Assembly: GCF_003351045.1 (NCBI RefSeq)
Contig: NZ_QQZY01000002.1
Span: 124,001 to 188,000 of the forward strand
Direction: 5' to 3'
DNA length: 64,000 nt
Source: Gaiella occulta
Lineage (GTDB): Bacteria > Actinomycetota > Thermoleophilia > Gaiellales > Gaiellaceae
Position numbers and translations under genes: made by a program. The notes beneath the pieces were generated by a model, which was not told where the DNA came from, did no database searches, and saw nothing but the letters and a program-made list of their open reading frames with translations. Below, one piece after another: positions 19,758-23,634 of the stretch. Each line of letters opens with the position of its first letter. Positions within the stretch are counted from its first letter, which is position 1.

Positions 19758-19767
19758 GCGCCGCCGA

Positions 19768-20334
19768 ATGGCCGAGATCGTCAACACCAACCAGTTCAAG
19801 AACGGCATGCACATCGAGCATCGCGGCGGTGTGTGGCGGATCGTCGAGTTCCAGCACGTCAAGCCGGGCAAGGGCGGTGCGTTCGTGCGCACGAAGCTGA
19901 AGAGCCTCGAGACCGGCGCCGTCGTCGACGACACGTTCCGGGCAGGCGAGAAGTTCCCGCGCGTCCACACCGAGGTGAAGAACGTGCAGTTCCTCTACGA
20001 CGACGGCACCGAGGCGCACTTCATGGACGAGCAGTCGTACGAGCAGTTCGCCGTGCCGTCCGCCGAGGTCGAGCTCGAGCTGTCGTACATGCTGCCGTCG
20101 TCCACGGTGCAGATGCTCGCCGTCAACGGCAAGCCGTCGGGTATCCAGCTTCCCGCCTCGGTCGAGCTCGTCGTCTCCGAGACCGAGCCCGGCGTCAAGG
20201 GCGACACCGTCTCGAACGTGACCAAGCCGGCGACGCTCGAGACCGGCGCCGTCGTGCAGGTGCCGCTGTTCGTGAACGCGGGTGACCGCATCAAGGTCGA
20301 CCCGCGCGAGGCGCGCTACATCTCGAGGGCCTGA
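19768..20334 (+). CDS. efp: Translation elongation factor P
   Basis: 188 residues in three beta-barrel domains. The loop tip is KPGKGGAFVRTKLK, and the second Lys is the modified residue in many bacteria. The C-terminal OB domain ends with GDRIKVDPREARYISR. EF-P rescues ribosomes stalled at polyproline. No epmA or epmB is nearby, and actinobacterial EF-P of this loop type is often unmodified. Confidence 0.96.
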   Translation: MAEIVNTNQFKNGMHIEHRGGVWRIVEFQHVKPGKGGAFVRTKLKSLETGAVVDDTFRAGEKFPRVHTEVKNVQFLYDDGTEAHFMDEQSYEQFAVPSAEVELELSYMLPSSTVQMLAVNGKPSGIQLPASVELVVSETEPGVKGDTVSNVTKPATLETGAVVQVPLFVNAGDRIKVDPREARYISRA

Positions 20335-20464: not shown

Positions 20465-22270
20465 ATGCCGCAGCTCGTCGACACCACCATCCGCCTGCTC
20501 TCGCAGGAGCCTCTCGCCGGCAAGGTGCCGACGGGCGAGGTGCTGCGCATCGCGGAGATCCTCGACCGCGCCGGCTTCGCCTGCCTCGAGGTCTCCGGGG
20601 GCGGCGTGTTCGACGCCGCGGTGCGGCGCGGCGTCGAGAGCCCGTGGGAGCGCATCCGCGCGCTCGCCGCGCGTACGACCACCCCGCTCGGCATCGCGCT
20701 GCGCGGACGCTTCCTCGTCGGGTCGAAACCCGTCTCGACGGACATCGTGCGGCGTTTCGTCTCGTGCGCGGCCGAGAACGGCATCGACGTGTTCCGGCTC
20801 CACGACCCGCTCAACGACGTCTCGAACCTCCGCGAGGCCGGCCGCGCCATCGTCGACGCCGGCAGGCAGTTCCACGCCGGGCTCGTCTACAGCCCCGGCC
20901 GCGCCGGCGAGATCGACGCGTTGGTCGAGCAGGCGAGGAAGATCGCCGACCTCGGGGCCTCGCGCGTGCTCGTCAACGACCCGACCGGGGCGCTCCTCCC
21001 GCATCTGACCCAGGAGCTCGTCGAGCGGCTGCGCGACGCGACGGGCCTGCCGGTCGGCCTGTACGTGCAGGGCGCGTCCGGAACGGGCCTCGCGAACGCC
21101 CTCGTCGCCACGCGCGTCGGCGCCGACCTCGTCGCCACCGCCGTCTATCCGCTCGCGCTCGCGCTCCACCGCGTGCCGGGCGAGTCGCTCGTCGACGCGC
21201 TGCACGGGCTCGGTCGCGACACGGGCGTCGACACGGCGCCTCTGTGGGCGGCGGCCGACGTGATCGACGAGCACATCGGCGACGAGCCCGTCGCGCCCGT
21301 CGCGCCGCGGATCGCCGTCCGCGCGGCGGAGTACGACCTCCCCGCCGGGCTCGTGGCGGCGCTCGACGTGCATCTGCGCGCGCATGCCGCAGGCGACCGA
21401 CTGCTCGACACCCTGTTCGAGGTCGGCCGCATCCGTGCCGAAGCCGGCTGGCCGCCGCTCGCGGCGCCGATCGGGCAGATCCTCGCATCGCAGGCGCTGC
21501 TGAACGTGCTCTCCGCGAGCCGCTACGGCACCGTGCTGGACGAGTTCCGGCTGCTCGTCGAGGGCGGCTACGGCGAGACGCCGGTGCCGATCGAGGCGGG
21601 CGTGGCGCGCGCGGTCGAGCTCGTCACCGGCAGCTCCCCTGCCCTGGACGACGACCCTCCGAGCGCGGATGACGTGCGCGAGGCCGCGGAGGGGCTCGCG
21701 GCAAGCGAGGAGGACCTCGTGCTGCTCGCGATGTTCGGCGAGGAGGCGCAGACGCTGCTGCAGACGATCCGGCAGCGCCACTCGCGCGAGGCGTCGCTGC
21801 TCCAGGGCGACGTCGACGCGACGCGGGCGGAGCGCATCCGAGAGCTCGTCAGGATCGTGCAGGAATCGGGCGTCGGCGAGATCGAGATCGAGGACGGCGG
21901 CATGCGCGTCTCCGTCAGGCGCGCCGAGGAGGTGCAGGTGGTCAGCGCCGCGCCTCTCGCCGCGATCGCCGAGCAGGCCGAGCCGTCGCTGCCGCCCGCT
22001 GCCCCGGCCGGCACGGTGCGGGTCGAGTCGCCGATGGTCGGCGTCTTCTATCGCTCGGCCGATCCGGGATCGCCGGCGTTCGTCGAGGTCGGCGACGTCG
22101 TCGCGGCCGGCCAGACGCTCTGCCTGCTCGAGGCGATGAAGTTGTTCAACGAGCTCAAGGCGGAGCAGGACGGCCGTGTGCGCGCGATCCACGTCGAGAA
22201 CGGCCAGCCGGTGGAGTTCGGGCAGCTCCTGTTCGAGCTCGATCCGCTCGACGCGCAGCCGATCGTCTAG
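20465..22270 (+). CDS. Degenerate carboxyltransferase barrel fused to AccB biotin carrier
   Basis: 601 residues. Residues 1 to about 440 align with the oxaloacetate decarboxylase/pyruvate carboxylase carboxyltransferase family (LVDTTIR, CLEVSGGGVFDAAVR, LRGRFLVGSK, GIDVFRLHDPLNDVSNL). All four metal ligands of transcarboxylase 5S are replaced: L11 for Asp, N171 for the carboxylated Lys, Y200 and Q202 for the His pair. The C-terminal ~150 residues are a complete acetyl-CoA carboxylase BCCP: AccB-type lead-in RIRELVRIVQESGVGEIEIEDG, a linker, then the biotinyl domain with K559 in EAMKLFNE. accC follows after 5 nt. Start ATG 20465 is 11 nt after TAAGGT. No accA/accD is in the window. Confidence 0.85.
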   Translation: MPQLVDTTIRLLSQEPLAGKVPTGEVLRIAEILDRAGFACLEVSGGGVFDAAVRRGVESPWERIRALAARTTTPLGIALRGRFLVGSKPVSTDIVRRFVSCAAENGIDVFRLHDPLNDVSNLREAGRAIVDAGRQFHAGLVYSPGRAGEIDALVEQARKIADLGASRVLVNDPTGALLPHLTQELVERLRDATGLPVGLYVQGASGTGLANALVATRVGADLVATAVYPLALALHRVPGESLVDALHGLGRDTGVDTAPLWAAADVIDEHIGDEPVAPVAPRIAVRAAEYDLPAGLVAALDVHLRAHAAGDRLLDTLFEVGRIRAEAGWPPLAAPIGQILASQALLNVLSASRYGTVLDEFRLLVEGGYGETPVPIEAGVARAVELVTGSSPALDDDPPSADDVREAAEGLAASEEDLVLLAMFGEEAQTLLQTIRQRHSREASLLQGDVDATRAERIRELVRIVQESGVGEIEIEDGGMRVSVRRAEEVQVVSAAPLAAIAEQAEPSLPPAAPAGTVRVESPMVGVFYRSADPGSPAFVEVGDVVAAGQTLCLLEAMKLFNELKAEQDGRVRAIHVENGQPVEFGQLLFELDPLDAQPIV

Positions 22271-22275
22271 CCGCC

Positions 22276-23634
22276 GTGTTCTCCCGCGTCCTCGTCGCGA
22301 ACCGGGGTGAGATCGCCGTGCGGGTGATCCGGGCGCTGCACGAGATGGGGATCGAGGCGGTCGCCGTCTACTCGACGGCGGAGCGCGACGCGCTGCACGT
22401 GCGCATGGCCGATCGAGCGGTCTGCATCGGGCCGCCGTCGGCGACCGACAGCTACCTGAGCATCCCCAACGTGATCGGCGCCGCCGAGACGACGAGCTGC
22501 GAGGCGGTGCACCCGGGCTTCGGCTTCCTGTCGGAGAACCCCGCGTTCGTGCGCGCCTGCGAGGAGAACGACCTCGTGTTCATCGGCCCGCCGGCGGACG
22601 TGATGGAGAAGGCCGGCGACAAGGCCCGCGCAAAGGCGGAGATGCGGGCCGCGGGGGTCCCGCTCGTGCCCGGCAGCGACGGCGTCGCCGACCTGGCCGG
22701 GATGCGCGCCGCCGCGGCGGAGATCGGGTTTCCGGTGCTCTTGAAGGCCTCTGCGGGCGGCGGTGGCAAGGGCATGCGGGTCGTCTCGTCCCACGACGAG
22801 CTCGAGGCCGCGTACGACGCCGCACGCCACGAGGCCGAGGCCGCTTTCGGGGACGGCTCGCTCTACCTCGAGCGCGCCGTCGTGCCGGCCCGGCACGTCG
22901 AGATCCAGGTGCTGTGCGACGGGCACGGGGGCGTGCTCACGATGGGCGAGCGGGAGTGCTCGATCCAGCGGCGCCACCAGAAGCTGGTCGAGGAGTCGCC
23001 GTCGCCGGCTCTGACAGCGGAGACGCGCGAGGAGATGGAGGCGTCGGTCGAGCGTGCCTGCCGGCGGCTCGGCTACGTCAACGCCGGCACGTTCGAGTTC
23101 CTGCTCGGCCCGAGCGGCGAGCCCTCGTTCATCGAGGTGAACTGCCGCTTGCAGGTCGAGCACCCCGTCACCGAGCTGACGACGGGGATCGACATCGTCC
23201 GCGAGCAGGTGCGCATCGCCGCCGGGGCGCGCCTTCCGCTCACCGGTCGCGCGCCGCGATCGGGCCATGCGATCGAGATCCGCATCAACGCGGAGGACCC
23301 GGCTCGCGACTTCGCGCCCGCCCCCGGCCTCGTCACCCGCTTCCGACCGCCGCTCGGGCCCGGTGTGCGCGTCGACACCGCCGTCGTCGACGGGGCGCGG
23401 ATCCCGCCCTACTACGACTCGATGATCGCGAAGGTGATCGTCCGCGACGACGACCGTCCCGCCGCGATCGCGCGGGCGATCAGGGCGCTCGAGGAGCTCG
23501 AGGTGGAGGGCATCCCGACCACGCGCGAGCTCGCGCTCGACATCCTGCGCTCGCGCGAGTTCCAGGGAGGCGCGTACTCGACCAGCTACCTTGCGGAGAT
23601 GCACGACCGTCTCCCGTCCCTTCGTCCCGCGTGA
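22276..23634 (+). CDS. accC: Biotin carboxylase subunit of acetyl-CoA carboxylase
   Basis: 452 residues. The ATP-grasp biotin carboxylase begins FSRVLVANRGEIAVRVIRA and has ASAGGGGKGMRVV (ATP lid), ERECSIQRRHQKLVEE, the catalytic EVNCRLQVEHPVTE and the C-terminal YYDSMIAKVIV. It carboxylates biotin on BCCP, presumably the fusion protein encoded 5 nt upstream. GTG start. The stop overlaps the Asp23 gene. Confidence 0.95.
   Translation: MFSRVLVANRGEIAVRVIRALHEMGIEAVAVYSTAERDALHVRMADRAVCIGPPSATDSYLSIPNVIGAAETTSCEAVHPGFGFLSENPAFVRACEENDLVFIGPPADVMEKAGDKARAKAEMRAAGVPLVPGSDGVADLAGMRAAAAEIGFPVLLKASAGGGGKGMRVVSSHDELEAAYDAARHEAEAAFGDGSLYLERAVVPARHVEIQVLCDGHGGVLTMGERECSIQRRHQKLVEESPSPALTAETREEMEASVERACRRLGYVNAGTFEFLLGPSGEPSFIEVNCRLQVEHPVTELTTGIDIVREQVRIAAGARLPLTGRAPRSGHAIEIRINAEDPARDFAPAPGLVTRFRPPLGPGVRVDTAVVDGARIPPYYDSMIAKVIVRDDDRPAAIARAIRALEELEVEGIPTTRELALDILRSREFQGGAYSTSYLAEMHDRLPSLRPA

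Follow-up and report, generated by a model that had tools for sequence, protein, structure and literature searches.

The window, by which is meant the whole 64-kb stretch of the Gaiella occulta genome that was analyzed, contains a single open reading frame in which a carboxyltransferase (CT) barrel is joined to an AccB-type biotin carrier. The gene order, based on sequence and on conservation in other loci, is efp-[fusion]-accC-asp23-nusB, followed by xseB, ispA, tlyA, nadK, and recN. As the first-pass annotation of this DNA had proposed, the fusion occupies the accB slot ahead of accC-asp23-nusB, and the slot is conserved across the class. A search of the 64-kb window against Rfam returned no match. 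The features of the locus are as follows:

19767..20334, + strand: efp, upstream neighbor; identified from sequence, with the order conserved in other loci of the class
20465..22270, + strand: whole gene, pseudo-carboxyltransferase-AccB fusion, 601 aa; uninterrupted open reading frame, matched in length and start by the homologues of relatives
20465..21265, + strand: TIM-barrel (HMGL-like) domain, residues 1-267, without metal ligands; PF00682 match and predicted structure
20495..20497, + strand: codon of L11, equivalent to the metal ligand Asp23 of 5S
20702..20710, + strand: codons of R80-G81-R82, of which R80 is the pyruvate-binding Arg that has been kept and R82 stands in place of a Gln invariant among active relatives
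20708-20710: codon of residue 82, Gln in active proteins and Arg in nearly every dead lineage
20975..20977, + strand: codon of N171, equivalent to the carboxylated Lys184 of 5S
21062..21070, + strand: codons of Y200-V201-Q202, equivalent to His215-x-His217 of 5S
21329..21781, + strand: PYC_OADA (post-barrel) domain, residues 289-439, with A298 at the catalytic Ser/Thr position; PF02436 match
21473-21475: codon of residue 337, Ser in active proteins and Gly/Ala in nearly every dead lineage
21818..21919, + strand: residues 452-485 (RAERIRELVRIVQESGVGEIEIEDGGMRVSVR), N-terminal helix and hairpin of the AccB type; matched by TIGR00531 starting at model position 5
22022..22240, + strand: biotinyl domain, residues 520-592; PF00364 and TIGR00531
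22139..22141, + strand: codon of K559, the biotin-attachment lysine in EAMKL; sequence conservation
22276..23634, + strand: accC, ACC-type biotin carboxylase, 452 aa; NCBIfam PRK08591 (619, cut-off 597)

Three Pfam domains are recognized in the fusion protein, HMGL-like (residues 2-267; 50.2 bits, cut-off 29), PYC_OADA (residues 289-439; 44.7 bits, cut-off 27), and Biotin_lipoyl (residues 520-592). The protein passes the NCBIfam model for AccB (TIGR00531, residues 457-592; 127 bits, cut-off 115.2 bits) and reaches 384.8 bits with the PycB model PRK09282, slightly below the cut-off of 402. An AlphaFold2 model, for which 69 sequences of the window family were the input, has a pLDDT of 84.9 overall and ~95 in the barrel, and the top Foldseek match is the beta chain of a two-subunit pyruvate carboxylase (PC; 5KS8 chain D, E = 6.5e-43), with OadA (2NX9) and 5S (1RQH) both at a TM of 0.84 by target length (rmsd, 3.3 and 3.0, respectively). 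Pfam, phmmer, and Foldseek concur on the placement of the N-terminal part in the OadA/PC carboxyltransferase family, and on the model the fold of the barrel appears intact, such that only the chemistry would be missing. The linker and the AccB N-terminal region are poorly modeled (pLDDT <60), with a helix (452-468) and two strands (472-477 and 480-485) placed at low confidence in the latter. The biotin domain, described at first pass as intact and of AccB type, holds to that description, with TIGR00531 over its cut-off and residues E556, A557, M558, K559, and L560 invariant in all 69 sequences of the window family.

Residues of the active site were mapped using phmmer against PDB sequences, namely 5KS8 chain C (two-subunit PC beta), 2NX9 (OadA), and 1RQB (5S). 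Four of the four metal ligands of 5S are absent, with Asp23, Lys184, His215, and His217 replaced by L11, N171, Y200, and Q202, and the alignments with OadA and PC beta are consistent with this (RDAHQ becomes RLLSQ, KDM becomes NDP, and HxH becomes YxQ). The claim that every ligand had been lost was made from the sequence before any structure was aligned and is borne out by all three alignments, none of which shows a shift in the ligands. All 46 Gaiellales sequences have Q at position 202 and L, I, or V at position 11, with variation at position 171 (H, N, L, S, or D); a displacement of the ligands to nearby residues was rejected, as no substitute set is conserved. Following the numbering of 2QF7, the biotin-pocket Tyr (Y628) is replaced by S87, and R621 and Q552 are retained as R80 and Q14, the latter being the Gln of RDxxQ; in R. 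etli PC we take Y628 to line the biotin pocket and R621 and Q552 to bind pyruvate. The catalytic Thr/Ser (T882 of R. etli PC) corresponds to A298, a position occupied across the Gaiellales sequences by Ala (~82%) or by Ser/Thr (~15%). With the four ligands and the catalytic Ser/Thr gone, the usual carboxyltransferase mechanism should be impossible, as originally suggested, and by its lost metal site, lost catalytic residue, and score below the curated cut-off the window protein would fall outside the functional PC/OadA carboxyltransferases despite sharing their fold.

The genome of G. occulta (3.03 Mb, 34 contigs, ~98% complete) encodes four PF00682 barrels, including that of the fusion. From our reading of the sequences, the other three are presumably an isopropylmalate synthase, a homocitrate-synthase-like protein, and an HMG-CoA-lyase-like protein, and no further barrel of the PC or OadA type was found in this genome (98% complete, 34 contigs). 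AccA and AccD are encoded adjacent to each other, and genes of the PccA/PccB and MccA/MccB types are present. PccA and MccA are the other biotin carriers, the remaining biotin/lipoyl domains resemble lipoyl domains, and, within the same 34 contigs at 98% completeness, there is no second carrier of the acetyl-CoA carboxylase (ACC) type besides the fusion. The neighboring accC is also of the ACC type, encoding a protein that ends where ACC-type AccC ends and lacks the C-terminal helix of PC alpha. The PC alpha subunits have ~471 residues, with a C-terminal helix that is absent from ACC-type AccC (PMC5059739). By its match to TIGR00531, its biotin lysine, its ACC-type partner genes, and the lack of a rival AccB, the window protein is predicted to be the AccB of this organism.

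The fusion protein is present in 52 of 61 genomes from relatives, including all 29 of those at least 90% complete, and named loci with the fusion belong to the Gaiellaceae of the Thermoleophilia (e.g., Gaiella sp. FR_16). A set of 68 related full-length proteins from other assemblies, some of them in a single contig or a few contigs, is equal in length, start, and fusion point. In a class-wide sample, seven families possess a fused gene of ~600 residues in the same slot, and a TIGR00531 search indicates that the fusion is their usual ACC-type carrier. The complete site (D11, K171, H200, H202, and Ser298) occurs in families f6, f9, and most of f7. The Gaiellales (f1, f2, and f3) possess none of the four ligands, with the site lost in 46 of 46 sequences. 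The bacteria that have lost the whole site form a widespread group from soil and sediment. Family f5 keeps D11 and has lost K171, both His, and most of the pocket, including the pyruvate Arg, Gln14, and the EGG motif, yet keeps the fusion, and two genomes of f7 (L163 and L165) have S, K, D, and D at the ligand positions.

Open frames of ~600-700 residues ending in AccB are common in a phylum sample of 296 genomes. The fusion is encoded in 39 of the 40 regions read and lies directly before accC in 38 of those 39, as read, with the region of locus L304 covering only the start of accC. Site loss is not seen in 19 further families, in which the ligands were fully read except in the truncated L321 (f47), and D, K, H, and H are present in all 54 active-family sequences for which the four positions were read. 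One active relative (L157; 4382-6208, - strand) scores 834 bits with the PycB model, against the cut-off of 402. Two additional families have broken sites, with f16 (L302-L311, L323-L326) keeping D and K and losing both His, R80, and the PGG motif, and f34 (L312-L314) keeping D and both His with K changed to M, R10 changed to G, and the PGG motif broken. The search for homologues and their gene context, proposed along with the original observation, places a site-less form that is fixed in the Gaiellales within a CT-AccB fusion widespread in the phylum; the Gaiellales form is best described as a derived state of a fusion predicted to retain catalysis in at least 19 other families and not as an isolated oddity.

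On the accC tree there are three changes between dead and active states, involving the Gaiellales with f5, the two f7 genomes nested in the active f7, and f16 with f34, and a grouping of the Gaiellales, f5, f16, and f34 is rejected (p-AU = 2e-6). The barrel tree, built with the ligand columns removed, has two such changes and on its own is compatible with a single dead clade (p-AU = 0.16); a single origin of all dead barrels is strongly rejected by the neighboring accC. The dead f7 pair groups with the other dead proteins on the barrel (p = 0.035 for holding f7 together), whereas accC nests the pair within f7 and rejects joining it to the others (p = 0.014). Because of its long branches, the barrel tree is the weaker witness, and with long branches in play it is considered firm that predicted catalysis was lost at least twice and likely that there was a third independent loss. 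The losses appear to have used different sets of residues, and in none of them was the barrel deleted. The dead groups share several changes at positions invariant in the active proteins, including Q82 to Arg (97% of Gaiellales, 82% of f5, 92% of f16, and 100% of f34), S337 to Gly/Ala, and the loss of G294 and N299, which may be the result of convergence or of a shared first step. Under the simplest history, the ancestor was probably a catalytically intact CT-AccB fusion next to accC, with a carrier that probably served both pyruvate carboxylase and acetyl-CoA carboxylase. AccA was present in 29 of 30 genomes tested, active-barrel and dead-barrel alike, and an intact-barrel carrier in a genome with no other AccB would therefore have to serve ACC and, presumably, pyruvate carboxylation.

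Despite the loss of the site, the barrel has been maintained. Amongst the Gaiellaceae, dN/dS (Nei-Gojobori; rough at high dS) ranges from 0.02 to 0.19 for the barrel and from 0.07 to 0.38 for the AccB part, with the barrel lower in 22 of 22 pairs. Values this far below 1 argue against a useless relic, since a relic would drift toward 1, and the barrel has the signature of a pseudoenzyme domain, a catalytic fold under strong purifying selection without its catalytic residues. Of 149 positions invariant in the active proteins, those kept in all dead groups are mostly structural (N117, L304, E319, G328, P335, Q343, A344, R353, G367, G370, and the biotinyl domain). Within the Gaiellales, the loops of the active face (C-terminal strand ends, assigned from the secondary structure of the model and not from coordinates) show the highest conservation within the barrel (0.868, compared to 0.735 elsewhere; a value reached in none of 5000 permutations). 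A tendency toward conservation is common to the active-face loops of TIM barrels in general. The conserved set of R10, Q14, E42, G45-G47, R80, R82, F83, H113, D114, P115, N117, D172, and Q202 is partly new, and an active face that is both conserved and re-furnished suggests that a ligand, most plausibly an anion, is still bound in the Gaiellales pocket. Variation at position 171 leaves this pocket incompletely fixed. For other dead lineages, the role of the barrel may be just structural; the contrast is weaker in f5 (38 of 5000 permutations), so a role for a ligand cannot be general.

The occurrence of an alternative route to oxaloacetate differs between the two states. PEPC matches of substance were found in the G. 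occulta genome and in ~28 of 92 dead-barrel genomes, compared to none of 36 active-barrel genomes (Fisher p = 3e-5, ignoring kinship), a pattern that fits intact barrels making oxaloacetate and dead ones being relieved of that task. In many of the dead-barrel genomes there is no match to PEPC or to another PC, which rules out PEPC as a universal replacement and leaves it as a partial explanation.

From the fusion and the loss of the catalytic site, both read directly in the sequences, we infer that the protein is probably the AccB of a heteromeric ACC with a permanent pseudo-carboxyltransferase, in which the barrel would serve as a dimerizing assembly platform with a pocket that, in the Gaiellales, most likely binds an anion. 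The biotin on K559 would be carboxylated by AccC and the CO2 then passed to AccA/AccD. The ancestral fusion would have functioned as a pyruvate carboxylase by way of its own barrel in addition to acetyl-CoA carboxylase, with the Gaiellales giving up pyruvate carboxylation and retaining the barrel as a dimerizing platform for AccC and the carrier. The re-furnished pocket (R10, Q14, E42, R80, R82, H113, D114, D172, and Q202), most likely binding a small organic anion, could tune the complex. A more specific proposal is offered tentatively, in which a formerly bifunctional carrier lost its pyruvate carboxylase activity repeatedly and the emptied site of the Gaiellales came to sense a 2-oxo or dicarboxylic acid and thereby to set how fast malonyl-CoA is made.

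It is also conceivable, but rather unlikely, that the barrel just holds the carrier and AccC as a stable dimer around a relic pocket that binds nothing. All dead lineages conserve the positions that hold the fold but differ in which pocket residues they have lost, the fusion persists in f5 without the motifs noted above, and in two-subunit PC the BC dimer is carried by CT dimers of the beta subunits (PMC5059739). However, no part of the Gaiellales barrel is better conserved than the active face, and new (near-)invariant residues such as R82, F83, P115, and Q202 would be needless in a relic pocket. The first-pass suggestion of a scaffold is therefore kept in part, as a wholly inert scaffold is hard to reconcile with an active face that is invariant and re-furnished in the Gaiellales; the other first-pass suggestions, an allosteric sensor of pyruvate or oxaloacetate or a docking platform for AccC or AccAD, may still apply. 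A new, metal-independent reaction in the re-furnished pocket, perhaps with a 2-oxo acid or a CoA ester as the substrate, would account for the (near-)invariant polar residues at the strand ends, but is improbable: the acid/base set of any known family cannot be recognized, neither Q202 nor R82 would make a good general base, position 171 varies, and the parallel losses elsewhere did not converge on the residues of the Gaiellales. Barrels of this family are not known to us to catalyze any reaction without a metal. A carboxyltransferase still working, with shifted ligands or without metal, could draw on the kept pyruvate-binding R80 and Q14 and on H171 and H113 near the pocket in most relatives, but it is highly improbable given the joint loss of four ligands and the catalytic Ser/Thr, the N171 of the window protein, the missing substitute set, and the PEPC distribution, and in R. 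etli PC a T882A substitution by itself is enough to eliminate the decarboxylation of oxaloacetate induced by oxamate (PMC5895798). A frameshift, chimera, or misassembly of two genes can be dismissed, as no support for such an artefact was found, the identical fusion recurs in dozens of assemblies, including the 68 related proteins, and dN/dS is far below 1.

The predicted pseudo-carboxyltransferase-AccB has parallels in several known systems. The beta subunit of two-subunit PC (PycB, CT plus BCCP; Methylobacillus flagellatus, 5KS8) and OadA share with the window protein a CT barrel, a PYC_OADA domain, and a biotinyl domain on one chain and are its best match in sequence and fold, but the window protein lacks their metal ligands and catalytic Ser/Thr. 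Additionally, where two-subunit PC has a four-stranded PT/BT-like sheet, the segment between CT and BCCP in the window protein is the poorly modeled AccB N-terminus, and its partner is an ACC-type AccC without the C-terminal helix of PC alpha (PMC5059739). The AccB of bacterial heteromeric ACC (TIGR00531) shares the AccB N-terminus, the EAMKL biotinyl domain, an adjacent accC, and accA and accD in the genome; an ordinary AccB has ~150 residues, whereas that of the window bears an extra pseudo-carboxyltransferase of 440 residues. A further likeness is to the intact CT-AccB fusions of other Actinomycetota families (L149-L159, L287-L301, and L315-L320), which have the same fusion in the same slot, are ~30-39% identical to the window protein, and, unlike it, keep D, K, H, and H and the Ser/Thr. 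No paper on these intact fusions, nor any description of the fusion or of its catalytic loss, was found in the open-access literature, in agreement with the first-pass statement that no description of the arrangement was known to its author. Dead or non-catalytic parts are retained in biotin carboxylase complexes elsewhere, including the BADC proteins of plant heteromeric ACC and the central domains of eukaryotic ACC. The inactive component of those complexes is a carrier or structural domain, whereas the window protein contains an entire dead carboxyltransferase that belongs to another kind of carboxylase.

The bacterial plan of ACC, an essential enzyme, is regarded as settled, with AccA, AccB, AccC, and AccD as four small, separate proteins. 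A whole branch of the Actinomycetota appears instead to use an AccB of ~600 residues with the active domain of a second carboxylase built in. For the families with an intact domain, this suggests that one carrier and one biotin carboxylase are shared for the supply of oxaloacetate and malonyl-CoA. Further, intact and emptied barrels in one gene slot provide a natural series for asking why cells keep a dead enzyme domain, be it for assembly or for sensing.

Several observations concern carriers and barrels outside the fusion of the window. In many Actinomycetota families an intact CT-AccB fusion immediately precedes an accC of the ACC type, and in the Thermoleophilia it is usually the sole ACC-type carrier, which suggests that pyruvate carboxylase and acetyl-CoA carboxylase share it. 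A CT-type barrel that is separate from the fusion and distant from it, and whose ligands (D, K, H, and H) look intact, is present at L174 and L175 (Gaiellaceae genomes G162 and G210) and at L182, and in G162 and G210 it is encoded next to a stand-alone AccB-like gene. Lastly, in families f31 and f45 (L288, L287, and genomes G353, G441, G333, G304, and G274), an intact CT-AccB fusion occurs along with a separate stand-alone AccB elsewhere in the genome, and in these organisms the pyruvate and acetyl-CoA carboxylase jobs may be split between the carriers.
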